NCBI GenBank assembly: GCA_947568835.1
Contig: OX387607.1
Span: 13,469,701 to 13,533,700 of the forward strand
Length of the DNA: 64,000 bases
Source of the DNA: Protonemura montana
Lineage: Eukaryota > Arthropoda > Insecta > Plecoptera > Nemouridae
Direction of reading: 5' to 3'
The notes under the pieces were generated by a model. The model was given only the letters and a program-made list of their open reading frames with translations, was not told the DNA's origin and ran no database searches. Position 1 is the stretch's first letter; each line of letters starts with the position of its first letter. Shown piece after piece: positions 4,191-55,600 of this stretch. The position numbers were made by a program, and so were the translations under genes.

Positions 4191-4320
4191 AACCCTAACC
4201 TAACCTAACCTAAACTAACCTAACCTAACCTAACCTAACCTAACCTAACCTAACCTAACCTAACCTAACCTAAACTAACCTAACCTAACCTAACCTAACC
4301 TAACCTAACCTAACCTAAAC
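4191..4320. repeat. Interstitial telomere-like repeat (CCTAA)n
   Basis: About 25 tandem units of CCTAA, i.e. (TTAGG)n on the minus strand, the ancestral arthropod telomere motif. The variant TAAAC unit occurs at about 4211-4215 and exactly 60 bp later at 4271-4275, suggesting duplication of a 12-unit block. It lies inside ordinary sequence, not at a chromosome end. Confidence 0.9.
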
Positions 4321-4745
4321 CTACTAACTCATCCAGGAAATACCTGAGAAATGAGGAGAGCAAGATTTCTTAATATCATAGCATATGGAGTGGTCACTTC
4401 TCCATAACCATTCTTCAAGTAACCGGTGACGAATACCTACTTGCTTAAGTTAAGATCTTGCCATGATTTTATTACAAGATGAGTTTAGTTCTGCAAATGC
4501 AAAGTGACACATTTTGCAAATCCAGTCATAAAGCAAGGTAATGCAAATGCGTCAATAGTTTTATTCTACTCTGCATTTTTTTTTAATTTAAATTTTTAAA
4601 ATATAATGCAAATGTTTTTAAAACCTCTGGAAGTTACCGCTGCTAACAAATCGTACGATCCAGAAGACGTTGAGTGAGATTCGAATTGCTCAACGAAATT
4701 GTTTCATGTTTCGACAAGAAGTGTCAGATTCATTTTTGCCGCAAT

Positions 4746-4839: not shown

Positions 4840-7800
4840 GTAATTCGCGTTCAACAATTACATCATATTCTAATACACCGCATGAAAGGAACAAAATGAT
4901 TGGTAACAGGTACACTCGAAAGTCACTCTAGTCGTACTGAACAGTGGTTGCTTTTCATTTCAGGGAGAAGAAGAAGAAACAGATATATCATAAAAAATAA
5001 TTCTGGGAACCTGTTGTTTTCTGGCGAGGAAGAGGCGAACAATCAGGACAATACTTTTCTTGGTTCCTTCACACGCACTTTGGCTCTTGCCAACTCGCAA
5101 AACACGGAAGCTATCATTTTGCGGCGAAATTATGAAACTACTTTAAGGGTACGAGCCAACGTCTCCATATGCAATTTGCAATATCAAATACCATATGCAT
5201 GACAATTTTTCGTTAAAAATTCATTTCTGAAAACAGCTTGCTTGATCTCCAAAAATGTCCACAAAGTCCTTGTGGCTTAAGGTGGACCATGAGTCATTCC
5301 ATGTCAAATCAACCGAAACCGTCACCTCTCGGAAATCGACCAAACTTGGTAGGATGATGACAACATCATTTCTAGTGTTGATGTGTTTTTTTGTTTGCCT
5401 CTAAGTCAAATGGTTCGCCCGGTACGGCCCCGAAACGGCGGGACGGCACTGAATTTTGGGGCACACACGTCTTTTTTCTTTCTCAAATAGCGTCGGCTGT
5501 AGTTAAGATAGATTAATGAAAAAGAAAGCTTGAAAGACATTGAAATGTTGTTTCATAAAACATAAATTTCGTTAGTTAAAAAAATGTTAGCATTATCTCG
5601 ATTAGACAAAATATTATCAATGAAATAGATGTCTACAAATCACAAAATAAATAATGCATTGTGTTTTACGAAAGGAATACAATAAAACTAGTTGTGAGTT
5701 TTTAGACTCATGTCCACTTTGTCTAACCTTAGCACTAGTTTTAACAAAAACAATTTCAACTGGGTTTTTAATGCTAAGTGAAGAACAACTAAATTTTATT
5801 GCTCTTCACTTAGCATTCAAAACCAGGGTTCAAATTGTTTTTGTAAAAACTAGCTATTTTTTATTTTTTACTTAAGAACAAGCAATTTTTAAGAAATCAA
5901 GCATTTATTTGTCAGATGATCAAGAACATGGTAGTGACTAGACAGCTAATTTTTACACTAATTTGTACACTAATTGTACACTAAAAAACAAAAAACCTTC
6001 AGCTTGAACTTCATGTATAGGTGCGTATTTATGCCATTTCTTTATTTTCTTGAACACTATTTTTTAGTGCATTGAAGAGTTTATGCTCGTGTCTGGACAC
6101 AAATTTGCTTGCAGTTCTGCAAGACAAGCTTCCTCCTCTAAATCTTCAGATCCCTGACCATGACCCCATACAATCTTAATCTAATCTTTTCTTTTCGAAG
6201 GTGATGGAGGCATGGAGTCCCTTAAACAATAGATTAATCGGGGTCATCCAGGAAAATTCTACCTGCTGTGGTGTAGAATATGACGTCAAGGACGGCTACG
6301 GGGACTTGATTTACAAGATAGAAGGACCGGGTTACTTCGAAAGATGTTTGTGCCAGCCATCTGTCTTCAAGGTTCGTACAGACTTATACATGTCTGGTTC
6401 TAATTGACTATACTTCCCAACTCATTAAGTTCTATTTCACAAGCATTGATGTATGTTATGATTCACCTATGTACTCATACGCGAACTCACTTGCCGCTGA
6501 TGTCAAGCTACAGCAATCGTCATTACCTGACCTGTTGTGATAAACACCATAAACGCAGGGGGTCCCGGTGGAGATGGCAAAAATATGCTCTGCAAATTTA
6601 ATAGAAATCAAATGAGGAGTTCGACAGTAAGAGCGCAAACAAAAACACGAACAAACAAACAAACAAACAAACAAACAAGAAAACAAACAAAAGCTGTTTG
6701 AAATTTTTACACTGAACATTCTTTGGCATTAACAAAAACTATTTGAAATGGGTCTTGAATGCTAAATAAAGGACAACTAAATTTTCCGACTTTTCGTTAC
6801 ATGTACTAGTTACTTCTTCAAGGTTAAGAGCAGTCCTGACAATTTTCCGATAACCAAAGAACCACATAAAATTATAACAATTCCCAAGTTTAAGCATCCT
6901 AAATGCATCTTAATAAAATAATCAGGGCCAATAACTAAAAAACTAATGTATTTTGTATGTTCTGAAATAAAATCCCGAACACATTGGCGTTTTTTTACCA
7001 ACTAACCAATATGTGTGTGGAATGTCCAGAATGAAATGAATGGATTCTGCAATTTGTTATCGTCAAGGTTGACATCTTACGCACCTCTGACGCAAGAGAA
7101 GTTGGCGCATTTGCCATAAATGTCAATAAAGAAGCGTGATGTAGTCAACCCATCTTAAATCTTGCAGATCATCGATGAAGGAAATTCTACATCGGCAAAG
7201 ATAACAAAAGGAGTAAATCAATTCGGCTTTACAAACGAATATGCTAACGTCTACTATATTGAAGTTTACGCGAATATGCCTGACACACATAAGGCGCTGA
7301 TTCTGGCCGCCTGCATACAATTCGTAAGTTACTAACATTTCATGAAATTGCAAAGTTAGAGTTGTGTTCTTAAGATAAATAATAAAAAGGGGTTTACTTT
7401 CTATGCAAAACTCTGCCCTCCTCTCCCTCCTTGGGCACAACTACCACCCTTGCTGAAAGGTTGGTGGAAAGTATGCGTTGATCGTACCTGTGAATAATAA
7501 TGCGTGATAATGCGTGATAAATTGCGTGTGTACCACAAATACATTTCTGATACGTTAACGAAACTTCAATCTTCAAGTTTATACTTGCAAATATCATGTC
7601 TTCAAGTTTATACTTGCAAATATCATGTCTTCAAGTTTATACTTGCAAATATCATGTCTTCATGTTTATACTTGCAAATATCATGACTTCATGTTTATAC
7701 TTGCAAATACCATGACTTCATGTTTTTACTTGCAAATATCATGTCTTTATGTTTATACTTGCAAATATCATGTCTTTATGTTTATACTTGCAAATATCAT

Positions 7801-9686
7801 GTCTTCATGTTTATACTTGCAAATATCATGTCTTCATGTTTATACTTGCAAATATCATGTCTTCAAGTTTATACTTGCAAATATCATGTCTTCATGTTTA
7901 TACTTGCAAATATCATGTCTTCATGTTTATACTTGCAAATATCATGACTTCATGTTTATACTTGCAAATATCATGACTTCATGTTTATACTTGCAAATAT
8001 CATGTCTTCAAGTTTATACTTGCAAATATCATGTCTTCATGTTTATACTTGCAAATATCATGACTTCATGTTTATACTTGCAAATATCATGACTTCATGT
8101 TTATACTTGCAAATATCATGTCTTCAAGTTTATACTTGCAAATATCATGTCTTCATGTTTATACTTGCAAATATCATGTCTTCAAGTTTATACTTGCAAA
8201 TATCATGTCTTCAAGTTTATACTTGCAAATATCATGTCTTCATGTTTATACTTGCAAATATCATGTCTTCAAGTTTATACTTGCAAATATCATGTCTTCA
8301 TGTTTATACTTGCAAATATCATGTCTTCAAGTTTATACTTGCAAATATCATGTCTTCAAGTTTATACTTGCAAATATCATGTCTTCATGTTTATACTTGC
8401 AAATATCATGACTTCATGTTTATACTTGCAAATATCATGTCTTCAAGTTTATACTTGCAAATATCATGTCTTTATGTTTATACTTGCAAATATCATGTCT
8501 TCATGTTTATACTTGCAAATATCATGTCTTCAAGTTTATACTTGCAAATATCATGACTTCATGTTTATACTTGCAAATATCATGTCTTCAAGTTTATACT
8601 TGCAAATATCATGTCTTCATGTTTATACTTGCAAATATCATGTCTTCAAGTTTATACTTGCAAATATCATGTCTTCAAGTTTATACTTGCAAATATCATG
8701 TCTTCAAGTTTATACTTGCAAATATCATGTCTTCAAGTTTATACTTGCAAATATCATGTCTTCAAGTTTATACTTGCAAATATCATGTCTTCAAGTTTAT
8801 ACTTGCAAATATCATGTCTTCAAGTTTATACTTGCAAATATCATGTCTTCATGTTTATACTTGCAAATATCATGACTTCAAGTTTATACTTGCAAATATC
8901 ATGTCTTCAAGTTTATACTTGCAAATATCATGTCTTTATGTTTATACTTGCAAAAATCATGTCTTTAAGTTTATACTTGCAAATATCATGTCTTCATGTT
9001 TATACTTGCAAATATCATGTCTTCATGTTTATACTTGCAAATATCATGTCTTCATGTTTATACTTGCAAATATCATGTCTTCATGTTTATACTTGCAAAT
9101 ATCATGACTTCAAGTTTATACTTGCAAATATCATGTCTTCATGTTTATACTTGCAAATATCATGACTTCAAGTTTATACTTGCAAATATCATGTCTTCAA
9201 GTTTATACTTGCAAATATCATGTCTTCATGTTTATACTTGCAAATATCATGTCTTCAAGTTTATACTTGCAAATATCATGTCTTCAAGTTTATACTTGCA
9301 AATATCATGTCTTCATGTTTATACTTGCAAATATCATGACTTCATGTTTATACTTGCAAATATCATGACTTCAAGTTTATACTTGCAAATATCATGTCTT
9401 CAAGTTTATACTTGCAAATATCATGTCTTCATGTTTATACTTGCAAATATCATGTCTTCAAGTTTATACTTGCAAATATCATGACTTCATGTTTATACTT
9501 GCAAATATCATGTCTTTATGTTTATACTTGCAAATATCATGTCTTTAAGTTTATACTTGCAAATATCATGTCTTCAAGTTTATACTTGCAAATATCATGT
9601 CTTTTTTTCGTTTGCCGACGCTTAAAATTGTGATTTTTTTTCAGGATATGTCGTACTTCGAGATCGACAGGCGTTATACAATTTGA
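4746..9686 (+). CDS. Phospholipid scramblase-like protein (five exons)
   Basis: Exons 4746-4839, 4964-5148, 6201-6371, 7168-7323 and 9645-9686 join in frame (phases 1, 0, 0, 0) to give about 215 residues. The family mediates bidirectional, non-selective movement of phospholipids across membranes, or acts as a membrane-associated adaptor. Landmarks in family order: a segment like NRYIIKNNSG after an N-terminal GLQSL segment; the core stretch ending in a KIEGPGYF motif (family: GPC); and the conserved C-terminal hydrophobic helix, here KALILAACIQFDMSYFE, split across the last intron exactly at IQF|DMSYF. Odd points: no CCCPCC-type palmitoylation cluster is present, and the acidic Ca2+-binding motif is degenerate. 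It is shorter than human PLSCR1 (318), mainly for lack of a proline-rich N-terminus. The start is uncertain: the first exon is open upstream to 4674, and an earlier exon could exist. Confidence 0.85.
4964..5148 (+). CDS. Scramblase coding exon 2
   Basis: The acceptor is TTTCATTTCAG|GGAGAA. The exon encodes residues 32-93 and begins with the GRRRRNRYIIKNN segment, equivalent to GFETNNKYEIKN in vertebrate scramblases. It ends at TTAAGG|GTACGA in phase 0. The last residues (ILRRNYETTLR) align with the ITLERPLRC segment, but the cysteine-rich stretch that normally follows is missing. Confidence 0.8.
5690..5855 (+). repeat. AT-rich fold-back element in scramblase intron 2
   Basis: Carries the head TTTTTAGACTCATGTCCACT, then two inverted arms (about 5741-5795 and 5799-5852) that share CTAGTTTT, AACAATTT and TTAGCATT cores. 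The hairpin loop is only a few bases. Short direct repeats AAAACTAG flank the unit (about 5684-5691 and 5847-5854), though the second overlaps the arm. Same family as 2155-2366. Confidence 0.65.
6201..6371 (+). CDS. Scramblase coding exon 3
   Basis: The acceptor is TCTTTTCTTTTCGAAG|GTG and the donor TTCAAG|GTTCGT, phase 0 on both sides. The exon encodes 57 residues (94-150), including RLIGVIQ (family: PIGYVIQ) and LIYKIEGPGYF (family: VLKISGPC). Confidence 0.85.
6650..6690 (+). repeat. AAAC microsatellite
   Basis: A run of AAAC/AACA units (ACAAACAAACAAACAAACAA) in scramblase intron 3, slightly interrupted. Confidence 0.8.
6722..6800 (+). repeat. AT-rich fold-back family, single arm
   Basis: One arm only, with AAAAACTATTTGAAATGGGT and TTGAATGCTAAATAAAGGAC, in scramblase intron 3. 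No inverted partner is seen nearby. Confidence 0.5.
7168..7323 (+). CDS. Scramblase coding exon 4
   Basis: The acceptor is AATCTTGCAG|ATC and the donor CAATTC|GTAAGTT. The exon encodes 52 residues (151-202). The region equivalent to the acidic, Ca2+-binding DADNFGIQFPLD motif of PLSCR1 reads roughly TNEYANVYYIEV, which has lost most of the aspartates. The start of the C-terminal hydrophobic helix (KALILAACIQF) closes the exon. Confidence 0.9.
7570..9599 (+). repeat. 29 bp minisatellite, exactly 70 units
   Basis: Head-to-tail units of 29 bp, read as TCTTCAAGTTTATACTTGCA followed by AATATCATG. The span is 2030 bp = 70 x 29 and I could follow every unit without a single indel. Variation is almost confined to three positions in the first eight bases (T/A, C/T, A/T). 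Coding 1=TCTTCAAG, 2=TCTTCATG, 3=ACTTCATG, 4=TCTTTATG, 5=ACTTCAAG, 6=TCTTTAAG, the array reads 1112334422 1223312331 2112121123 1421312111 1111251462 2225251211 2351213461. Units 13-16 and 17-20 (2331 twice) show a four-unit duplication. The array fills 2030 of the 2321 bp of the last scramblase intron. Because 29 is not a multiple of 3 and the unit has no stop in any forward frame, it appears open in all plus frames; this is not coding. Confidence 0.97.
9645..9686 (+). CDS. Scramblase coding exon 5 and stop
   Basis: The acceptor GTGATTTTTTTTCAG|GATATG lies 45 bases after the end of the 29 bp minisatellite. The 13 residues DMSYFEIDRRYTI complete the family's C-terminal signature, and TGA is at 9684-9686. 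Confidence 0.85.
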   Translation, partial: DMSYFEIDRRYTI

Positions 9687-12463: not shown

Positions 12464-12756
12464 ATTATTCCCTATTAAAATGAAATCTTATTTAAATTGC
12501 AAACGCTTGCAATGCGCGGGGTATTTCATTATTACCAACACTTTAACCGTCTCAAAAATTGATGCCTAAACGGGGACACGTACCCCAATCTCCACCTATC
12601 GCGGGTGTTGCTCTAACCAATTGAGCTACTTGGACACTGGCTTTTTGAGACGATTTAAGTGTATTTGATGAGAATGACAAACGTCCAAACGTCCCCGTTT
12701 GGACATCAATTTTTGAGACGGTTATGGTGTTGATAATAATAAAATTATTCCCTATT
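12464..12756 (-). mobile_element. Hairpin-flanked tRNA-derived SINE with 13 bp target duplication
   Basis: The direct repeat ATTATTCCCTATT lies at 12464-12476 and 12744-12756. The 267 bp insert (12477-12743) reads on the minus strand as: left arm, spacer, tRNA-like core with an A-box-like TAGCTCAATTGGTTAGAGCA (12628-12609), a degenerate B box (12586-12573), right arm, then a tail module with GCATTGCAAGCGTTTGCAAT ending in AAGATTTCAT. The two arms (12691-12741 and 12528-12576) are inverted repeats of about 50 bp that enclose the tRNA-like core. Their inner end includes the TTGGGCA-type acceptor strand of the tRNA part. Head and tail fit a pol III-transcribed, LINE-mobilised SINE; the enclosing hairpin is unusual. 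Confidence 0.8.
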
Positions 12757-12818: not shown

Positions 12819-12855
12819 GTGAAATCTTATTTAAATTGCAAATGCTTGCTATGGC
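12819..12855 (-). repeat. Tail fragment of the tRNA-derived SINE
   Basis: The plus strand reads GAAATCTTATTTAAATTGCA then AATGCTTGC, matching the tail module of the element at 12477-12743 in the same orientation. It may be an older insertion into which, or beside which, the complete copy landed. Confidence 0.65.
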
Positions 12856-18482: not shown

Positions 18483-18640
18483 AACTAAAATTATCAACAC
18501 TAACCGTCTCAAAAATTGATGCCCAAACGGGCCCCCGTTTGGGCATCAATTTTTCAGACGGTGATAGTGTTGATAATAATAAAATACCCCGCGCATTGAA
18601 AGCGTTTGCAATTTAAAGAATATTTCATCCTAACTAAAAT
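18483..18640 (+). mobile_element. Hairpin SINE derivative lacking the tRNA core, 9 bp target duplication
   Basis: The direct repeat AACTAAAAT lies at 18483-18491 and 18632-18640. Between them the two arms of the 12.5 kb element abut almost directly (18,493-18,538 and 18,539-18,580), meeting at AAACGGGCCCCCGTTT, and are followed by the same tail module (CCCCGCGCATTGAAAGCGTT) to TTTCATCC. The tRNA-like core and pol III boxes are gone, leaving a near-perfect hairpin of about 40 bp plus the tail. Confidence 0.75.
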
Positions 18641-26215: not shown

Positions 26216-27295
26216 ATTGCCAGTGATAGTAAGGGTCTATTTTTATTAATTCTAATATGACAAAGAGGTTAATTTTCGTGTTAAATTTCAGGTATTTATT
26301 GCCATCAATTGTTAATGGTAAGATTGCATTCAAACAATTTTTCTTTGCGCACGTTATTTCCCTGGCTCGTGATTTCACCCCAAAATCAGGTACAATGATT
26401 TCTTGCCTCGAGCAAACGCCCCTCCAAACGTCCACGACACCACAACGTCGAGTCACCGCTCACGTCGTCGACTGTACTTGTCGGTATACGGACCGCCTCT
26501 GTGTGCGTCGGCATTAATAATTACTTAAACAATTAGTGCACATTACAGAGAGAGAGACCAGGCATTAGCCGAGGCGTACGCCACCAATCGTAGTGCTCGA
26601 CCGGGTTGTTTGGTTTCCGCTCGAGATGGATCTCTCTACGATCCCCCTGGCCGAATGGGGTGGGTTTGTGCGAGGGGAGGGTGGGGGATGAAACGGCGTT
26701 TATATAACTTTGATTAACTGTTGGGCACGGCGTTTGTTCTGTGCAAATAGAAAACGACGGGCAAACACGACGGTCGGGCTCCTGGTTTGGTTAGCGCTCT
26801 TCGCGGATGATGATGATAATTGTGTGATGCTAAGATTTGCTTTTAATTGATTGCGCTTGTTAAGCGTTGTTGGAAAGCGGTCTCCATCGCGGCAGTGGCG
26901 GGTGTAGGGGTCAATGTCTAAGGGGAATGTCTTGCAGTGGCGGAATTGACATTAGGTTTGTGATTATTTTACCCTGAACAGACATCGACGTTTTCGTAGG
27001 TGGAAGCGTTGACAGGTTATTTAGAATCATGTTTACAACTGAAATTCGCTTGTTCGCGTGACAGTTATTGCTGAGTTTGAGAATATCGCATTGGAAAAAT
27101 TGTCAAGGAGGGTCTGTCTTTTTTTGCCATGTTCCTGAAAGAATGGTTTCCAGCGAAGATGTTTTAGTTCTTTTCAACGTTGTCATGCCAAAGATAATTT
27201 GAAGATCTTACCAGTTTTTACTCGGAATTGATGAGATGTGAAAGATTACTCCCGTGTGAACAGTTTTTGAGTCGTTTAATATTAGGAACACAAGA
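26216..27295. other. Intergenic, no gene supported
   Basis: AT-rich, then a CpG-richer stretch (about 26,390-26,700). No recognisable product. Confidence 0.45.
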
Positions 27296-27459
27296 ACCCT
27301 CTCAAAAAGCGATGCCCAAACGGACACTCCGACCCTAATCTCCACCAATAGAGGTTCGAGTCCCCGTTTGGGCATCGATTTTTGAGACGCTAGTAGTTTT
27401 CCTAATTAATAAAATACCACGCGTATTGCAAGCGTTTGCAATTTAAATCAAATTTCACA
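27296..27459 (+). mobile_element. Hairpin tRNA-derived SINE, internally deleted
   Basis: A left arm (CTCAAAAAGCGATGCCCAAA on plus, 27,301) and right arm (CCCCGTTTGGGCATCGATTT, 27,362) form an inverted pair. Between them is a short remnant, with an intact B-box-like GGTTCGAGTCC (27,353-27,363) but no A box. The tail module (GCAAGCGTTTGCAATTTAAA) follows. No clear target duplication was found. Confidence 0.65.
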
Positions 27460-29445: not shown

Positions 29446-29594
29446 TGCTCAATGGGCTAGAGCAACACCCGCGAAAGGTGGAGATCGGGGTTCGAGTCCG
29501 CGTTTGGGCATCAATTTTTGAGACGGTTATAGTGTTGTTAATAATAAAATATCCCGCGCATTGCAAGCGTTTGCAATTTAAATCAGATTTCATC
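29446..29594 (+). mobile_element. tRNA-derived SINE, 5'-truncated, B box intact
   Basis: Starts inside the tRNA-like core (CTCAATGGGCTAGAGCAACA), with B-box GGTTCGAGTCC at about 29,490, then the right arm, and the tail module through GCGCATTGCAAGCGTTTGCA to CAGATTTCATC. The left arm is absent, consistent with 5' truncation during reverse transcription. Confidence 0.7.
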
Positions 29595-32235: not shown

Positions 32236-32757
32236 GTGTATGATGGTCACCCATTCAATACTTGACCCAGCGCAGTGTTGCTTAACTTAGATGATCTCAC
32301 AAGAACCGGTGTTTCCAACACACCAAACCGTGCGGTGGTCATCCATCTAATACCTGACCCAGCGCAGTGTTGCTTAACTTAGATGATCTCACAAGATCCT
32401 GTGTTTCCAACACACCAAACCGTTCGGTGGTCACCCATCCAATACTTGACCCAGCACAGTGTTGCTTAACTTCGGTGATCTCACGAGATCCGGTGTTTCC
32501 AACACGCCAAACCGTTCGGTGGTCACCCATCCAATACTTGACCCAGCGCAGTGTTGCTTAACTTCTGTGATCTCACGAGATCCGGTGTTTCTAACACACC
32601 AAACCGTTTGGTGGTCACCCATCCAATACTTGACCCAGCGCAGTGTTGCTTAACTTCGGTGATCTCACGAGATCCGGTGTTTCCAACACGCCAAACCGTT
32701 CGGTGGTCACCCATCCAATACCTGACTCAGCGCAGTGTTGCTTAACTACGGTAATTG
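32236..32757 (-). repeat. 92 bp tandem array of 5S-SINE head units (six copies)
   Basis: The anchor GGTCACCCATCC or a variant recurs at 32,245, 32,337, 32,429, 32,521, 32,613 and 32,705, exactly 92 bp apart. On the minus strand each unit holds the 5S-like core (GATCACCGAAGTTAAGCAAC, then TATTGGATGGGTGACC) and a short linker containing GAACGGTTTGG. The internal units are nearly identical. None carries the SINE middle module or tail, so only the promoter-bearing head was amplified. Confidence 0.9.
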
Positions 32758-38569: not shown

Positions 38570-38731
38570 CCGGGGCCGCGCGGACGCAGCCCCGACTACC
38601 AAAAATTACGCGCCCGAGTAATCTACATTTGAGATCATCGCAGGGGTCAGCCCAACCGTAGTGCAATGGAAGAGCCTCACCCTGGGGGAACCGCCTTGTT
38701 GATCAAGGTAACCCCTACGCCAGGTAAGTAT
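38570..38731 (-). ncRNA. U1 spliceosomal snRNA gene or variant copy
   Basis: Transcribed on minus from 38,731. The 5' end ATACTTACCTG is the exact U1 sequence that pairs with 5' splice sites. Stem-loops I, II and III follow, the Sm site AATTTTTGG is intact (about 38,607-38,615), and a strong GC stem-loop IV (GGGGCTGCGTCCGCGCGGCC) ends near 38,570. About 162 nt matches the normal U1 size of about 164. Stem-loop II has ATTGCACTAC, one base away from the U1A-binding ATTGCACTCC. The stem-loop I loop reads GATCAACAAGG instead of the conserved GATCANGAAGG bound by U1-70K. It is either a functional variant or a recent pseudogene. I could not assign a proximal sequence element with confidence. Confidence 0.85.
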
Positions 38732-43652: not shown

Positions 43653-46600
43653 CTGCAGGGACAAAATGTGAACGGTTATTGAGCGTTATTCATCTTTTGA
43701 AACTCCCATGGTTTCATTTTTAGTTTGTCATCTCAATGCCACCATGCCTCCAAGTCCCCTTTAGGACAATAAACCCTACAGGAAAGATGCTAAATCATAA
43801 GACCACAACAGTCAATATGATGACAGAAGGCACGCTTACGCCCTTGCTAGCTATTGTTTCTCCCCCGATTTGCTTATATGTGTTGTATGAGCGTAGTACC
43901 AAAGGGCTAATATTTAACTGTCTTCGCAAAAAATGGTTGCCAAATGGCCACTTTACGGACAAAAATGGGGAATGCATTTAGGTGGAGTTACCGCCATTTT
44001 GATTTTAAAGAAATTTTATTTTGTTATTTTTTTCAGTTACTCGTTGTTAGACTGGTTTACGCACAATTTATCTTCATGAATGCTAAGTTCAACAGTTGAT
44101 TTACTGGTAAAAACTACGAGTTGTAATTAATAAACTGTAGAGGTTTGTTAAAAAGTACCGGCTGCACGCACCTTTGAACGGCAACTACCGTTACCACGCC
44201 ATGCCAGCTCGTTTGCTCAGCAAAAAGTTGCTGGCCCTTTTACTATTGTATACGTATAAACTGAATAGTATTAGTTACCTCCGCCTCCTGCAGTACTCTC
44301 TTCTCGTCTTCGTCTCTCCGCTTCTTCATGTTCTCGTTGTCTTGCCTTGCCTCGTTGAACTGAGTCAGGAAGCCGTCAAAGATGCCAAAGAAGTCGTCTG
44401 GCTGGATGGACGAGTTATCTTCTCCGAAGAGTCGGACAGCTCGGTCAAACTGTGGGCAGGCAACTCTCGTAAATTCCCAGAGAGGATATTTCGTTACCCA
44501 AGTGCAAAGCTAACTAATATTCCATATCAACCGCATCCCAGTTATGTAAAGATCAAATTTAGGCAATGTAAGACATTTTAACCAGAAGGTAGAGAGCAAA
44601 AGCAGAAAAACTTTTTGTTATAGCTAAATTGCTTTGTAAAACAGTTATAATACTAGAATACGGTCTATGAACGATTGGGTTACGATGACAATGATAAGGA
44701 ACCTAGTCATTTAAGAAGTAAGAGTAGTCACCAAAAGCACATCCTAAACAGTTGGTATTTTCCCCCACTATCCAAGTCAAAGAGTTGGTGGATTTTTAGC
44801 ACAATTTTCATTAACTTATTGATTTAATTTCAGTATCAATGATCTCAGTTCTTTGAATACTTGCAAAATGTTTAAAACTTTATCCAAACATATATATCCA
44901 AACAGGCCGTTGCTTAAAAAAACCCAGAATACTGTGAAAAAAATTTGTGAGATGAAATTGAAGAAAATACCATGCTATTTTATTATTATGAACACTATAA
45001 CTGTCTCAAAAATTGATGCCCAACTTTCATAATAATAAAACACCTCGCGCTTTGCAGGCGTTTGCAATTTAAATAAGATTTCATCAAAATACCATGCTTT
45101 TTATTTAGAATCATCAAAGAAATGGTTGGTTACAAATGAGACTGCCATATCATAACTGCACTCACCCTGGTCTTCATGTCTTGGAAGAGATCTTCCAGCT
45201 CCGAGAACCGACACGTGGCAGTGGACAGGAAATCCTTCATGACGGGAAGGAAACGGTCGCCAGTGGCAACGGGCTGTGATCGATGGAAGTCAATCTCGCG
45301 TTCTACGTCTTTAAGTCCATTACGTAGAGCGCTCATGTCCTTCTCGAGCTCAGCCATGCTGCCAACGAAAGAGTGGTTTTTAGATTCTATAAGGCTATGC
45401 AATTGACGTTCCCAGCTTTTACTTGTACGGCTCTTAAATACAGCTTTATCTTCAATTTCAGGTGTGATTTTAGAGTTGCCACGAGTTGACAAACATAGAT
45501 TCTATAGTCGTGCATAATTATTTTTTTATTTTTGTGGTGTTCTTGAAAGCTTGACACAGTAAAGTTAGCTTGTGAGTTTTTGTAAACTAAGCATTTAAAA
45601 CTTAGCTGATCATGAAAAAAACAGCAAGTAATATAGAGTTATTGATAGCTATTTTTGATGTAATCAAATTACTTTCACTTATGCATGGTTCCTATATAAG
45701 TGGTATAAGTGCCAAAAAGCTGGTACATTTAATGGGGAGAGTACAGAACAAACACAACTAACCAAGAAAGAAAAAGCTATTTCCATTTCTCTGAATCTAT
45801 TGCAAGCAGCTTTTTTAACCCCAGTGTGTTGCTTCCATTTTTCCACTTTCCCATTAGATATACTTTCATATTTACAAACTAAAATGCCATCATATCAGGT
45901 TTTACACAAAATACTCCAATGCCAATAAAAAAAACGAACATTTGTTATATTTACTAATGTAAACTACCTGTCAATGACTAAATGCCCAAAAGAAAAGTAC
46001 CTGAACTTATATAATAAGATGATCAATAAACTAACTCACCTGACTTTGGATGCTGCACGGACATGTGGAATGTCCTCGTCCAGCTTGAGAACGTCCTTGA
46101 ACTTCTTCTCGAGAACTTCGACCAGGTAATGCAGCAGCGTGGTACCTTTAGCGGCACTGGACTTGGTGTCGGCCAACCGGTTGAGAGACGTCAGGCGGAA
46201 GCCAGAAGCATTGCCACGAGCCCCCCGGTTCATGTAGTTGCCTGTCGAGGTAATGTCCACAGGGTGAGCAGTTGTCGGTAAACAGGGACACATAAAAACT
46301 TTTTGACTTTAACTTTGAGAAGGTAGATTTGAGACGAAAACAATTCTTTCTTTCCTTGTGAGAGCATTGAATGTGTAATGATGATGACATCGATACACAA
46401 GCACTGACTTGGCATAGGGTCTGAAGCCGAAGAATGTATAGCGGTGTAGTCATCAAAATAGTCAATACAGTCTCTCACATTCGAAGTGAGCTTGGCCGGA
46501 ATGTGCACTCAAAACACATATGATACATATGATTGATTTTGTTTCGTGACTATCTTGCCAAAAGCTGAAAAGTCAAAAACCTAGTTGTGTGGCCCTGTTT

Positions 46601-49600
46601 GGCCAGGGATCGCAAAATGACAAGAAATTTAAAATCATTAGCACTGTAAGAGAATAGAATGCAACAAAACCTTTCTGGCCTAAGCACATTACGTCTAAAA
46701 CGCTACTGGGGTTGGCAAAGCATAAAAGTACGCATCAGCTTACTGTGAGAGTGTTTAAAAACTGCTAAAACTGATATAGCTAATGTCGTTTTCAAGTAGA
46801 TGGTAGACCCATTTGAGGTAGGTATTAATAGTAAACAAAAGTTGCTAACTATAATCATCACAAAATTTTTGATTCTTTTTGAAAAAGTCATAGCCAGAAC
46901 ATAAACTGTTTTTCCAACTTAAATGTGCAGCAAGTGACAAAGTGTGACACCGACGGAGGGTGTTGGTCTCGTCCGAGATCATACCAAGAGCGAGCACGAT
47001 CTCGAGGAGTTTCCGCAGCCTGCGAGAGCGAGCCACCTCCCTCGACGCTTCCAGGACGGCTTTGATGCGCGGCTGGTACTCGCCCACCCAGATCCCAAAC
47101 CGTTTCTTGTAGTGCAGGCTGCGAAGCCTCTGTTCGTAGTGCGGGATCCTGCCACCAGTCACGCAACAACATTAGAGCTGGGTGATTTCATTTCTACATG
47201 GTCATTTTTCATTGTCAAGTAGAATTTCAGAAAATGAGGAGTGAATAACGGTGAATTCTTAATTTCGATTGCAAATACTTGAAATGGGCTGTCTTGTAAT
47301 TATTATGAACACTTTTAACACCTCAAATTTGATACCTTACTTTTTGAAGATTTATTATACTCTTCAAATACACAAAAATCCTCTTAAGAAGGTGGTTTCC
47401 AATTAGCATAGATGGTAAGTGCAACACCAGTGCTAGGTGGTGACCGAAGATTGATTCCCCGAATGAGTACACATTTTTGAGAAGGTTAATAAAAATGCAA
47501 AAGATTAAATGTTGCAATAGCACGTTACTTGACCATGCACTTATTATTTTTGAGGCGTAAATAGAGTCAATCACCTTCCAAATAACGCAAACAGAGTAAA
47601 AGCACAGCATATTTATACCTATACCGACAACTACAGATTGCAGTCATTGGTCGCGAGGTAAGCAAGAGATAGACAATGTAAAATTATAACTATTTGTTTG
47701 TAAGAAATGTTTAGCAATAATGAGTGGAACTATATATATGGTGGTAGTTTCTGCAATTAAACACCTTTAGAAAGGAATCAAAGAAAAACAGATAAAGAAA
47801 TTTAAAGAAGTCTGCTTAGAAGTATGAGAAATAGTGACGCAGTTACGGAATTTATGGAGAGAAGCAAAGCAATGGAAGTCAACTTGTATGTGAGACCAAG
47901 GCTACAGCCAAAAAAATGTATTAAACCTAAAACACTCATGGATTACCACCTTGATTCACTTCTCTTGGTAATTTCTGTAACTACCTCATTTTTCTCCTCC
48001 TCATATGCATGTTCAGGATTTTGGCACACTACCAATATTTAAAAAAGCCTACGAGATTTCACTTTGGTTCAATGTTTTCATTCAGGAATAATATTGCCTA
48101 CGAGCACTTACTTGGCGATCTCGTAAAGGAAGCGGTCCGCTCGCGCCAAGCTGTCGATCTCGTCACTATGTTCCTCCAGCAACGCAGACTCTTCGGGTGA
48201 CGGAGTGAACTTGAGCAGCTGCTCCACCATGTCAATGGGCAGCTGGTCGCGGCTGTCCATGCCGAGGATGGCTCGGCAGATCTCTTCGTCCGACATCTTA
48301 AGCTTGGACAGCAGAATTGTGCAGTTCTGCGCACGGCGCCCGTCTATCACCGACAGCACTTTGGCACGATTCTTGCCTGCCGAGGGGAACAAAGTTTTAG
48401 ACTTGTTTGTAAAATCAGAACTCAGGTCAGATGTCAGGTTTCTCATTTGTTGCGCTAACAGGCTGAGCTAACTCTAGCTAATAGTAAAATGTTTTTACAC
48501 TATAAACAGTATTTATAATTGGAGCATGGATTTTGTTTGTAATATTCGTATCTAATTTTATTGTATATTATTTTGACTGTCCTTATTTCATGTTTAGGAT
48601 CACCTGGACAATAAACATTAAAATAATAAATGATAATAAATAACCAAATTTACCCAAGAAAACTATTGTATTGAATTAGTCTGATGAATCTGCAAAGAAT
48701 AAATAATTTCCCATTCTACACCCATTCCATTCTAACGAATAGTCAGTCCCCATATAGATCCACATTTTTGAGAGGATAGAATGCCCCCAAGTGTATGCAG
48801 TTCACCTATTATTTATTTATCGTCTTGCCCTACCCTCACTTCTACAATTTAGTGGAACGCTAGGAACCTCGGTGCTGGGGCACTTGGATTCCACAACCAA
48901 ATTCACTGGAAATGCAAAGGATGCAAATACCAAGAGATTACAACACCCATGAAAAAAAGACCCAATTGCACCAGCAATTTGGAATGTTTAAATGTTACGA
49001 GAATTCAATGTCTCCATGAAATATTTGTAAATAACATAACTCTGTCTTGCCCCCTCGCCTCTCTAGTTGTCAGTAAATCACTGAATAACTACAATTTTTT
49101 TTAAGCACTTAAATGGTCATAATAATAATAATAAAAGCCACCTTTCTGTAAGTGATCGAAACCAGCCAGGCTGCACATAACCTACCAATCTTCGTGAGGT
49201 CCTCGACAGAGCCGTCGTTGGCCACCCCGTTCTTCTGGTAGGCACAGAAAAGCCGGTCGATGTTCTCCAACTCCATGGCCTGGTACAGCTTGGTATCATC
49301 CAGCTCGGACCAGACCGTCCCGTTAACCTTTGCGTCCGGCAGCTTGGACCAGTTGAAAGACTTGAGCGCGTTGCCGGGCTGAGGGACATTCTTCTGCCGA
49401 GGGGCGGCAGGGGCCGTAGGAGGCGGCGGTGGTGGGCCCATGCCAGGGGGCGGTGGTGGGGGTGGCCCCGACATGGGGGGCGGTGGTGGTGGTGCCGTAA
49501 ACTTGCTTGGGGACTTGTTGGTGTCCAGAGCAAAGGGTGCGGCACCGTTTCGAAGGGTGACAGCCTGGAACGAGATTACAGGTTTGTTAACTGAGAGTAT

Positions 49601-52600
49601 TGGCTTCAAAGAAGCAGTCCTTTGCAATATGACATTGGTGATTATGACATTGGAAACGACAATTCAGTTTGAGAGAAATGCCAAATGGCTTGGTTGGTCA
49701 AATGTAAATCATTCTTGAGGTTATAATTGTTTAGTTTGTAGTCAACTGTTTTATATTTCATTATTCCTTCTCACATTCATAGAAATTGATTAACAAGCCA
49801 AACATTTTTTTCAAGAAAGTGCAGAATCATGGTCTGAAAAATTGAACATAATCTGCAACTGTATTTTGTTTTAATTTCTTTTGCTTTTAACAGAACTCCT
49901 CAGCAGACTAAAGAAACGAGTGAAGCAAAACCCAGTATTTTAGATCTATCAGCATGCAGCACCTACCTGCAATTACCTGACAAAAATATCCAATTTCAAA
50001 TAAATACCAGCTTGCTACATATACTAATATGTATAGTGTGTACCGAGTTAAAATCTTATACTCAATGCAATTAAATGTGTCGTAGCTCGGTACTAGCCGT
50101 ACCTTAGCATCATCGGGCAAGCTTCCGCTGCTTACAATTCGCTCTAGCCGGTGCCGTTCTCCACGCTCGTCGTGGACGAGTCTGTCGAGCTCGGTGGCCT
50201 TGCTCTCGAGTTCAGACAGCCGTTGTTTGGTCTCCAGGTGACCCGACGTCTCCTTCTCTAGACGCTCCTTGACACGGGACAAGTTGGTCTCCATGTCCTC
50301 CTGGAAAGCCACAGAAACCATTGAAATACATTGGAAACTTTCATTACAAGGGCATTGGTGGGATTATTTAAATTTAAAAATAAATTAACAATACAACCTT
50401 TACAAATAAACACAATCAGCCTAAATATGCAGTGGCATGTCTTGGGTAGAGGCATCTTTGTTTAAAGTATTTGGCCCAACTAGGTAAGTTTTTTGAAATA
50501 ATATTGTTTTTGTAATTTTTAATAAAGGGGTCCTCTAGCGATCGGAAAATTTATGCAATGTGCCACAATATAAATGATAAAATATATTGAGAAAAGCTGG
50601 GATAGAGGAATTATTATTATTAATATTATTACAATAAAAGAAATTTAATTGCCCTAGTTTCTAATTGAACAGTTGAACTAGATTAGAGGAAACAAACTAC
50701 CAGTCCTCACAGAACATTTAATAATTCACTGGTAAGTGTGAATTGATTGGAATATGAGACGAGGAAAAAGAAAGAACCGAATGAGCAGAAGTTGAAAAGA
50801 GCTGGTTGCAATAGACGCAGAGTTGTATGATGGCCTTGTTCACATGGAGTACAGATTTATTTACTTTCTTTTTTGCAATCAGCTTTTTAATTTTGGTATT
50901 AATTTTGGTCTTAATTTTGGTATAATTTTGGTTCCTTCTTTTCTCTTAAAAAATACTTACAAGTTTTAACATTTATCAATATATTTTCCGTTCATTTCAC
51001 GACTAGCATCTAGCAGTTTACATTAAAGAAACTGATGTTTTTGAACAACTATTGCTAGAATACCATTCTCATCCCTTACCTTTTCTTGTGTTCTGAGATC
51101 CAATTCTTGTTCTTTTTTGGCCAGTTTTGTTGACATGTCTGAGTTTTCTTTCTCTAGTTCTTCAGCTTTGTTCCTTGCAGCAACAAGTTCCTCCTCCTTT
51201 GCCAAGCTGGAAATCAAGAAAAAAACTTCAAACAGCTGTATCTAAACTCCAGCTTCCTATGCTATATTAGTTTCTAATAGAACCAAACAGTTCTAAGTAT
51301 TTAGAAGATATACACAGCATTATAGTTATTTATTTATTTAAGGGCCTTTCATATAGTTAAAAAATGTATGTTTATTTTAAAATGAGAGCATGTGACTTGC
51401 AGAATGATCGAGAAACCACAAATTGCCTAAAAATCTTATGATATTATGATTGTTACGTACAGACGAACGATTTCCTTGACGTTGATCTTGAGTGGGGAGA
51501 CGTCAGGGTTTTCTCCCGTTTCACCTTGCAAAGCAATCTGTTGGACGATTCGGTCGAACAGCAGCCAGTGTTGAGGATGCGATCCATAGTCCACTAATAA
51601 AAAATAACATGTTTAATATGTGACATAACCAAATATAACCGTACTAATTGAACACCAGAGCATTGTCACGTACAGAGTTGGCCCAAAACATGACTATCAG
51701 GAATTCTTTGTAGAAATCGGTAGGCATGGTGAAAGTATAGGATTTTTAGTGTAAAAAAGAGTCTTTCTTGAAAAGACGAGATGCAGAACGCCAAGTAATG
51801 TATGTATATCTAATCATCAAATATATGTATATATTTATTTATTTACTTATTTTGTTATTCATTAGTTTATTTTATAAGTATAACTGACGTGATCCACGCA
51901 TTTTAATGTATCTTTCTGATCAAATAAAATACAATACAATACAATACAATCTCAGCTCCAGCCATAATATTTTTACAGTTGCCTAAATCCTCAAATTGAT
52001 AAAGATACAGACTTGCAAAACAGGAGATAAAAATGGTACTCTATTAGCACCTCGACTTACTTCAGTAATTGTCTCTTCGCCCTTCCCCAACCCCTTTGCA
52101 GACAATTTGGCACCAATAATCATCTTGATTATTTGTATTGCATTCAACATTGAAACCAGTGTTAACTGATGAACACACATGTCAGAGTTACAGGTCATGG
52201 TACATTGCCAAGAAAGACTGACAACAAGATAATATCAACAAGCAAATATTTACCAAGTCCAAATGTATGAAACAATTAAACTAGATAAGACCCACATCAT
52301 CACCATGCTTGTAACTTTAACAAGAAATGCATTTCATCTGTGTATAATTTCTGGGTCTTCCCTGTTGCAAGTAATTTCATTCATTATGCAGGAAGAAAAG
52401 ATTAGAGACCCGTTGCAGACTTAGTTCGGTGTTTGGGTATTTTCTCTTTCCACAGATACGAATACATAAGAAGTACTAGATAGTAGCATCGAGTATAAAG
52501 GTCTAGCCAGAGAGTCAGCATTAATTTTAAACTTTCTGGTGCGAAAACAAGCCGGCGAGACTTGGAAAAGGTAGGTGCTATCTTATGGCGTTTGCGGCCG

Positions 52601-55600
52601 TTCTTTTTAACCAACTTTCTCCATACTTTATTGTTTTCTACTCCCCCAGCTCTTGAACTGCATTATGTAATTTAATGGAAGATGCCCATTTCATAACCAA
52701 AATCACTTACGAGGCAAGAGAATGCAGTGCTCGAGCAACGACAATAGATGTGGGTACGCTGCCGTGTGGCTGAGTTTCCTTCGCAGCAGCTCGAACATTG
52801 CGGTGGCGCTCTTCGAGTCAATGTGCTCCTTGTCGTAACGTCGAGCCAGCTCTTTTTCGTCGTCGTTTCGAACCATCTCGAAGAAGTCCAAGTGACGGTC
52901 CAAGGTTTCATTCTCTCGCAGGCGCAGTTTGTCGATCACCGCCTAAGCACACGATTGGTTAGACGTTGGCAGGCACAAATTTGAGAAATTATCGAGAAAC
53001 CAGTGGCTAACGTAACAGTATACAGTGTTCTCTTGCTTTGTGGTTATAAGCTCAGTGTGGTTCAAACCTATGAAACCAACTGCCACATTTGGTAAATACT
53101 ACTTCTTTAATCCCATTTGTTATTGATTGTAAATTTATGAATGAATTAATCAATGAATGAATGGTGTAACATTAAATACTTTTTCCTCAACAACAGAATA
53201 GTATTTTTGACTAGATGTATTAAAGGCTCTGATAATATGTGATTTACGATCAATCTTTCTCATACTGTAAATCTAAACTGTCATTTAATCCCGATCATAA
53301 AATAATAGTATAGTGCAATTAAACGATGACAATGGCAGACCTACTACACTTGATAGGCTGACCTAAAAAGGGACAAGCACTTCCAGAATTGGCCTGCATA
53401 TGGCCTGCATATTATTATGGTTTTCACACTAATGTCTAACTTTTCTAACCTTAGCACTAGTTTTGACAAAAAAAAATAAACGGGTTCTGAATGCTAAGTA
53501 AAGAGCAACTAGATTTTCCACCGGTTCGTAACTTGTACTTGTTACTTGATCAAGTAACATTTATCCTAAGTTGGTCTTCACTTAGCATTCAAAACCCAGT
53601 TTTTGTCAGGTTTTATTGTTATACCTATATCTAGTATCTACAGTTCTAAAGCTAATAGTTAGTTACTAAAATGCTAATGGTAACTCTTATGATTTAATAC
53701 GATCGGTGATAAATAAATACTTTTATTTCAGCCACAGGACTTGGACTTAAGGACTTAGGAAAAATGTGTAAAATAGGTACCTAATAGACAAAGTCGGCAA
53801 TACTAATTAAATCATAGTGCTTTCACGCTTGAATAAAGTTCCAATGTTAATGTTAAACATTCTGCTGACTAAAATTTTGTCGGGTGTTGATCGGTAAGTA
53901 TTTTTTCCCAAGACAGCTTAGCATTAGCGCTGACTTTGATGAAGACTAAAAGCTATTGTGTGGCAAAGATAGAAAGAGAGACAGAGCTCAACCAAAATTG
54001 GCTTTGCTTGATGCACTCGTCGAGAAATCCCAAAAATTAAAACGTTTTGTTGTGTGCTTTTGTTAGAATTGTTGACAACGTGACTCACCTGTATCCCGAG
54101 CATGAGCAATTCGTATCGCAGATGAAGCCTGAACTCCAGGTTTTCCTGTCCTGGTCCGTAGTTGAGTACAGCATTGACAAACGACATGATAGCTGTCTTC
54201 AGGCAGACTTCGTCGCGGTAGACTCCCGTGCTGCGGTCCAGGTCGTTGACGATGCCTTGGAACCGTGTTCGTTCAGAGGCAAACGTCTGGTAATGCAGCA
54301 TCGCTTCCAGCACCTGACAAAACATGATCGGGTCAGCAATTATGAGGTCACTTGATAAGATTCTTTGGCTGTAAACTATTGAATTGCCTTGTTCTTTTGA
54401 CGTAGACCACTATTTGTCAAAATTGATCTCAATGTTCGAACGCAACTAATTTTTTGGTAATATATTTTTGTTCTTTCTACTTGAAAACCAGCATTTTCTA
54501 AAATTGTTATCTTAAAAGCTACTGAATAACAGTTGTAAATTGAATCTGTTCTTATCGTCATAAGCCATACGAAAAGAAAATTCATCTATTAAGAAATTAA
54601 TCTCTCCCAAGAGATACTGAAAGTCATGAGCTCGAAGGATTTGGTTCAAATTTTTCGTAGTGGACATCGGGGGTGACGTCGTTTTCTGCGTGGTTTTGTT
54701 ACCTTTCTGTGACCACCAGGAACCAGGCAGACAGCGCCCAAGATTTCCAGCACCGCAACCTTGGTCTTGATGTTCTCCGTGCTGAGACTTTGTGCGATCG
54801 TGTTGATGCCCGTGGGATGTGCCAGAACGTGCGCCCGGCCGTTCTACAATCAGGAACGGCACATTAGCCTAAAGAAATGTCTTCCACAGATAATATTTTT
54901 AATTATTATATTATTTATGTTCTACTATTTTATTTTTTCTGATTATAATAACTGCCATAAGTGGATACAATTGCTAAACTTTCTTTAACAATTCTAAAAG
55001 TTAGCTTTCAGATTCTGTTGAATTTAAGTAAAGAAGAGAACATACAGAGTGCAATCACAGAATGCAATGATTTTGTTGGGTTCATATCCCAAATGTTCTA
55101 AATTTTTTCCTCAATTTATACTGACAGAAAACATTTTTCGACTTTTCAGCTATGGAAAGACTAGATTTGTGACAGGTATACTCTTTGAGCGCCATGGCCC
55201 ATAAACCTTCCACCCCATCGCATGTTGAGCCTGAAAGATAACCACGCTAAGCATAGGCCGGAAAATTAGTCTAGATATCCTCATCAGTAAATATTCAGCT
55301 TGCGGAGCGGAATCAGGTTGTAGGATGCTCGAAACAGGCAGACAAATAGTTATTTTCATAAGAAATGTATCTTTTCTAAGCTAAAAAGTGAAATAACGTA
55401 AGCCACCCTAGCCTCATAGCATACCGAGTTGTTCATGAGTGCCTTGACACATCCGATGAGGGAAGTGTGAATCGAGCTCTGTGCAGTGCAATGGTCCATG
55501 TTGGTCAGGAAGCCTAGCAACGCGGGCAGGCCATCCAGCTCGATGAACCGAAGAACGAAGCTGTGTGGTTGTGTGCGCAGTGCGGTTTTGAGACCGTCAA

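Follow-up and report, generated by a model that had tools for sequence, protein, structure and literature searches.

LINEs are usually held responsible for moving short tRNA-based repeats. For Penelope-like elements (PLEs), work with a purified anole protein showed cleavage and extension of both strands and initiation at two internal sites, which bound the 'tail' (PMC11167929). The available portion of the work on rotifer PLEs describes inverted terminal repeats, a tail at one end, partial tandems and duplications of 8-10 bp; it also reports palindromic junctions, which its authors attribute to self-priming, and a single gene that had been mobilised in trans (PMC3846280). No tRNA-derived element moved by a PLE was found in searches of the open-licence literature. 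The repeat family analysed here, met in a 64,000-nucleotide stretch of the Protonemura montana genome (the window), shares with the endonuclease-bearing PLEs of Penelope/Poseidon type (PMC11167929 and the accessible part of PMC3846280) a head-to-head inverted end without the 30-50 nt tail, duplications of ~8-13 bp, partial tandems and variable junctions, but it is a tRNA-cored family without ORF, with the tRNA-like core set in an inner stem, and has no sequence in common with the PLE families examined. With metazoan retrozymes, as characterised in the accessible part of PMC7229834, it has in common a short, non-coding and non-autonomous unit of a few hundred bp and low GC, head-to-tail junctions and, when present, target duplications; it differs in carrying a tRNA-like fold in the hammerhead's place, in its inverted ends and in that no long arrays were seen. 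A search for the type I hammerhead gave no match in positions 1050-1750 of L036, a relative of the window copy, at E<=5, and RF00163 had no match genome-wide, in a search where no positive control matched either. The short nonautonomous Penelope elements of Heliconius are likewise short, non-autonomous and filed with Penelope, whereas a tRNA core goes unmentioned in the available portion of that source (PMC6685494). Finally, the tRNA-like core with A/B-box-like parts, the shortness, the high copy number and the target duplications are shared with LINE-moved tRNA SINEs, in contrast to which the long copies have a long head before the core, five T residues (T5) follow the core directly, the ends are inverted and no LINE tail was found at 76 exact tail sites.

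The window copy (12477-12743) is a single insertion with its sense on the minus strand, enclosed in a 13-bp target duplication that reads ATTATTCCCTATT directly repeated at both ends (Table 1). Its flank match of 13 exceeds the maximum of 9 (99th percentile, 8) among 300 random flank pairings, so the composite was inserted as one piece, in agreement with the preliminary description, which had proposed one insertion with a clean target duplication. The copy covers unit positions 126-325 of the family consensus. Two complementary pairs are present, the arms at 12523-12577 and 12691-12745 (55 nt, 89% complementarity) and an inner pair at 12538-12558 and 12642-12662 (21 nt, 90%). The 55-nt arms come from a stretch of the element's own 3' region that is attached, in inverted orientation, to the 5' end of the direct part. 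The separate tail module of the preliminary description exists, but not after the hairpin, where it had been placed: on the plus strand it occupies 12479-12522, outside the left arm, and the sense strand is minus. The A-box-like TAGCTCAATTGG and the degenerate B box GGTACGTGTCC are named after what we take to be the box consensus.

Table 1. Features of the window insertion and other family copies in the window (unit, position in the 326-nt family consensus)
Feature	Position	Strand	Basis or remark
Target duplication, left copy	12464-12476	none	Sequence and flank-match test
Direct part, unit 325-126, 95.5% to consensus	12480-12679	minus	Consensus match
Tail, unit 283-325, missing from inverted arm	12480-12522	minus	Consensus match and outer-end table
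Inner stem 3' strand, unit 247-265	12540-12558	minus	Family-wide stem
T5 run immediately past tRNA-like core (AAAAA on plus strand)	12554-12558	minus	
tRNA-like core, unit 168-243	12562-12637	minus	Consensus match, Rfam, ARAGORN
Degenerate B box, GGTACGTGTCC	12574-12584	minus	Read against box consensus
A-box-like TAGCTCAATTGG	12617-12628	minus	Read against box consensus
Inner stem 5' strand, unit 145-163	12642-12660	minus	Family-wide stem
Junction filler, 11 nt	12680-12690	none	Common only to window copy and L002
Inverted arm, unit 228-282, without tail	12691-12745	plus	Arm complementarity and consensus match
Target duplication, right copy	12744-12756	none	First 2 bases match inverted arm too
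Tail-only piece, unit 291-324	12820-12853	minus	64 bp past right duplication of window insert
Second composite, inverted 231-274, direct 230-326	18490-18629	plus	Near-perfect palindrome, 1-nt centre
Composite, inverted 206-280, direct 221-324	27275-27457	plus	
Copy with direct part 179-326	29447-29594	plus	Inverted block or duplication not found
Composite, inverted 236-283, direct 267-326	44976-45085	plus	
Old composite (~72%), inverted 111-261, direct 239-324	47252-47488	minus	

Elsewhere, the window holds a minisatellite at 7570-9603 (29-bp unit, ~70 copies at 96%), a 92-bp tandem array with two 5S rRNA-like matches at 32244-32752, an additional 5S match at 1133-1248 and a U1 snRNA match (146.6 bits, minus strand) at 38570-38731. 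About 26 chromosome-internal CCTAA repeats at 4194-4323 resemble what we take to be the arthropod TTAGG telomere unit, and open frames on the minus strand at ~45000-55000 look by eye like exons of a DAAM-type formin.

The family was sought throughout the assembly (258 Mb, 34 contigs). Positions 12464-12756 as query yielded 118 matches with the best 40 of 2208 candidates scored, and the number of candidates points to a large family; an exact tail pattern occurs at 1796 sites genome-wide, the reversed control at 0. Building and folding a consensus, as the preliminary description had proposed, was done from 17 long copies (326 nt once trimmed). In the sense direction the unit comprises a head, the inner stem 5' strand (145-163), the tRNA-like core (168-243), T5 (247-251), which sits within the inner stem 3' strand (247-265), an A-rich stretch (269-282) and the tail (283-326). 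The earlier assignment to tRNA is borne out by L036, with an Rfam tRNA match of 46.5 bits (gathering threshold 29), and by the consensus itself, which ARAGORN calls as a 76-nt tRNA; the window copy is too diverged, with 0 tRNA genes reported by ARAGORN in the window and its core missed by Rfam at the gathering threshold. At L041 (2566-3009), pieces of the 5' part of the core, from unit 170, lie in a head-to-tail row.

The consensus folds into a cloverleaf with the inner stem as its base, at -51.8 kcal/mol for core and stem together. This stem, of ~20 bp, encloses the cloverleaf and is common to the family, each pair being standard in 34-43 of 43 copies. Across the same 43 copies, double-sided changes were seen at one pair only, in 2 copies, and hence covariation gives the stem no support; any function is putative. 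At a guess, its left strand might be a fossil inverted end. Of the enclosing hairpin originally described, it is thus this inner stem that stands; the 55-nt arms are not a fixed family layout, as 41 copies show 40 different junctions.

The plain label 'SINE' given to the element is doubtful. The core and the A/B-box-like parts fit it, but just past the core TTTT is present in 39/44 copies and TTTTT in 37/44; in the box test, exact GTTCGANTCC was found in only 12/44 copies. A run of T residues is the terminator of pol III, so a T5 directly after the core disfavours pol III transcription through the whole unit and would argue against the status of an ordinary pol III SINE. By the same reasoning the template RNA was probably a longer transcript.

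Inverted blocks were catalogued in loci L001-L054, which had been picked by similarity to the window copy (L001, identical with L031). From 82 clusters, 64 were left once repeats and clusters near locus ends had been dropped, and 56 when a block reaching unit 315 was required, which leaves out copies whose direct end is without tail. An inverted block is present in 41 of these 56 composites with a 3' end and absent from 15. Duplication scores of at least 9 were obtained for 24/56, with duplication lengths of 9-20, and all but one of these 24 (L050) carry an inverted block. In the resulting set the outer end of the block falls at unit 273-287 in 23/23 copies, which leaves ~44 nt to the true 3' end; among all 41 blocks, 28 outer ends lie at unit 277-287 and 13 elsewhere. 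In a sample drawn independently of similarity (the window and six 10-kb stretches), five of nine places had an inverted block and four had none. These data dispose of the concern attached to the preliminary description, that the left arm is a chance second insertion: both arms lie inside one duplication, the outer end is near-fixed and the nine close pairs of arms among 100 listed sites, described below, are all head-to-head. Inverted ends and short length would also suit a MITE or fold-back DNA transposon, a reading that we regard as having hardly any chance of being correct and have rejected, since identical inverted termini and a constant duplication length are absent: one end is ~44 nt longer than the other, the duplications vary from 9 to 20 and the 5' ends are truncated at many points.

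The inner side of the blocks is far more variable. The 41 composites have 40 different junctions, the sole shared one being that of the window copy and L002, which have the same junction with filler, yet different target duplications. This pair, with the short string linking core and tail that recurs in ~6 of 76 listed sites, would be expected if the inverted composite were itself the master, a hairpin-shaped gene copied whole. So many distinct junctions, however, cannot stem from one or few masters; a fixed hairpin master is therefore rejected, and the general idea is very improbable. The inverted piece is made anew at insertion and is not an inherited part of the family, and some composites were probably re-copied. 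The blocks mostly repeat unit 228-282, found in the direct part as well, and 21 of 41 inner ends lie at unit 227-236, on the T-arm side of the core. A putative stop of the second cDNA at the tRNA-like fold, or at a modified base near the T arm, is possible; m1A58 is a candidate modified base in the tRNA T arm.

Whether the two arms were copied from one RNA or two can be read from their differences. At unit 269-270 the arms of a single insertion differ in 15/33 cases. At variable columns they agree in 95/128 comparisons, a level reached by 0.45% of permutations (mean for shuffled arms, 0.66), and at conserved columns agreement is higher, 1090/1193. The disagreement and the intermediate level of agreement indicate that the RNAs behind the two arms were related but often not the same, and the excess over shuffled arms means that some pairs may derive from one RNA. 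Self-priming (snap-back) of a single cDNA, favoured by the authors of the rotifer study in its available portion (PMC3846280), would generate an inverted arm without two-strand priming, and palindromic junctions such as 18490-18629 or the hairpin-like filler at 12680-12690 resemble its products; but it predicts agreeing arms, contrary to the 15 disagreements, and leaves the near-fixed outer end without tail unexplained. As the source of the arms we judge it more improbable still than the hairpin master, while self-priming may contribute to junction formation and to fillers such as that of the window copy.

The same differences bear on a LINE-mobilised tRNA SINE with 5' ends inverted by L1-type twin priming, or by a LINE priming both strands with two RNAs. 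Its appeal lies in the tRNA-like core with A/B-box-like parts and in the target duplications typical of SINEs, and inverted 5' ends are known for L1 too, according to the accessible part of PMC2912911. Yet with twin priming on a single RNA it is the upstream part that becomes inverted, whereas here the 3' region is repeated and the direct part has it too; this one-RNA version is rejected, the inverted part not being the upstream part of the same RNA. The arm sequences differ as noted, an outer end that is nearly fixed and has no tail is characteristic of PLEs, and no common LINE-like sequence was seen upstream of the 76 exact tail sites that lack the usual bases there, although a diverged LINE tail would escape this comparison. 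Overall, we consider a LINE origin unlikely.

Counts were also made independently of the fetched loci. An exact 28-nt arm word has 794 sites genome-wide, of which 431 continue into the tail and 363 do not, mutation in the four required tail bases explaining part of the latter. Among 100 listed arm sites there are nine pairs no more than 600 bp apart, all head-to-head; six have a tail on one arm, three on neither arm and 0 on both. Partial head-to-tail tandems are also present, with 238 exact tail-to-head junctions (control 0). As a separate observation, 21 of 55 listed exact arm sites on contig C1 fall in its last 3 Mb, and young copies may gather near chromosome ends.

PLEs of the same genome were examined for comparison. 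A PLE-type RT motif pattern matched 37 sites (control 0), and a wider RT motif returned the same 37. One copy of PLE family A has an uninterrupted 856-aa frame (RVT_1, E 2.8e-13) with a GIY-YIG-like segment recognised by eye and no Pfam call; its inverted terminal repeat spans 297 nt, shares 99.3% identity with the direct repeat and stops, at its outer end, ~49 nt before the 3' end, and a 12-bp duplication, ATGAACCTATTT, stands at both ends. The end word of this family occurs at 851 sites, and the 100 listed include 20 close pairs, 19 of them head-to-head and 1 direct. In PLE family B, seen in L070 and L071 as one repeated segment, the inverted block measures 70 nt and the tail 32 nt, and each end carries the 12 bases ATATATACTTAT; L072 has a 168-nt inverted block (91.7%) and no clear duplication. 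Since PLEs here show the same geometry, the odd architecture of the tRNA-cored family corresponds to a type of PLE product in this genome. No sequence shared between the two was found in the PLE loci examined, nor did the tail resemble that of PLE A above shuffles (24.8% as high). The single Pfam GIY-YIG match across the genome looks by eye like an SLX1-like host gene and was set aside. The family B end (L070, 2240-2285 and 3771-3816) matches the histone 3' UTR stem-loop at 24.9 bits, below the gathering threshold of 34.

Head-to-head arms, a short tail at one end, duplications of 9-20 bp and partial tandems make up the signature of PLE insertion, and we think it probable that a PLE retrotransposase inserts the copies of this tRNA-cored, non-autonomous retroelement family. 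Because no shared PLE sequence was found, we infer the PLE partner from architecture; the best reading is that insertion works like that of a PLE, with membership in a PLE family putative. A PLE reverse transcriptase-endonuclease would bind an RNA holding the unit and cut both target strands with a stagger of ~13 nt. The 3' end of one strand would prime at site 1 (~unit 326), giving the direct part with tail, and the other strand at site 2 (~unit 282), often on another RNA, giving the tail-less inverted arm; the two start sites would account for the fixed outer end. Both cDNAs would then extend toward the RNA 5' ends, the second often halting in the T arm of the tRNA-like fold, and their ends would be joined at variable points, with gap filling producing the target duplication. 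Counting against insertion by a PLE are the 15/56 composites without inverted block, L050 with its duplication among them, the 13/41 outer ends outside unit 277-287 and the block in only 5/9 places of the independent sample.

A more general proposal, which we advance tentatively, is that tRNA-cored short elements can be clients of PLE retrotransposases instead of LINEs. Instead of acting as a pol III promoter, the tRNA-like fold might then serve a longer RNA in its structure or processing, much as the hammerhead does in retrozymes and PLEs, and it might halt the second cDNA at the T arm, so that copies would have hairpin-like palindromic 5' ends at birth. In annotation, such copies could pass for a fold-back element or for a pair of SINEs in opposite orientation, and hairpin-ended copies might yield double-stranded RNA. 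The many natural insertion products could be used to read two-strand starts and cDNA joining by PLEs, which are poorly known, and a family of this size with a Penelope-type signature would add small tRNA-cored units to what PLEs mobilise in trans.
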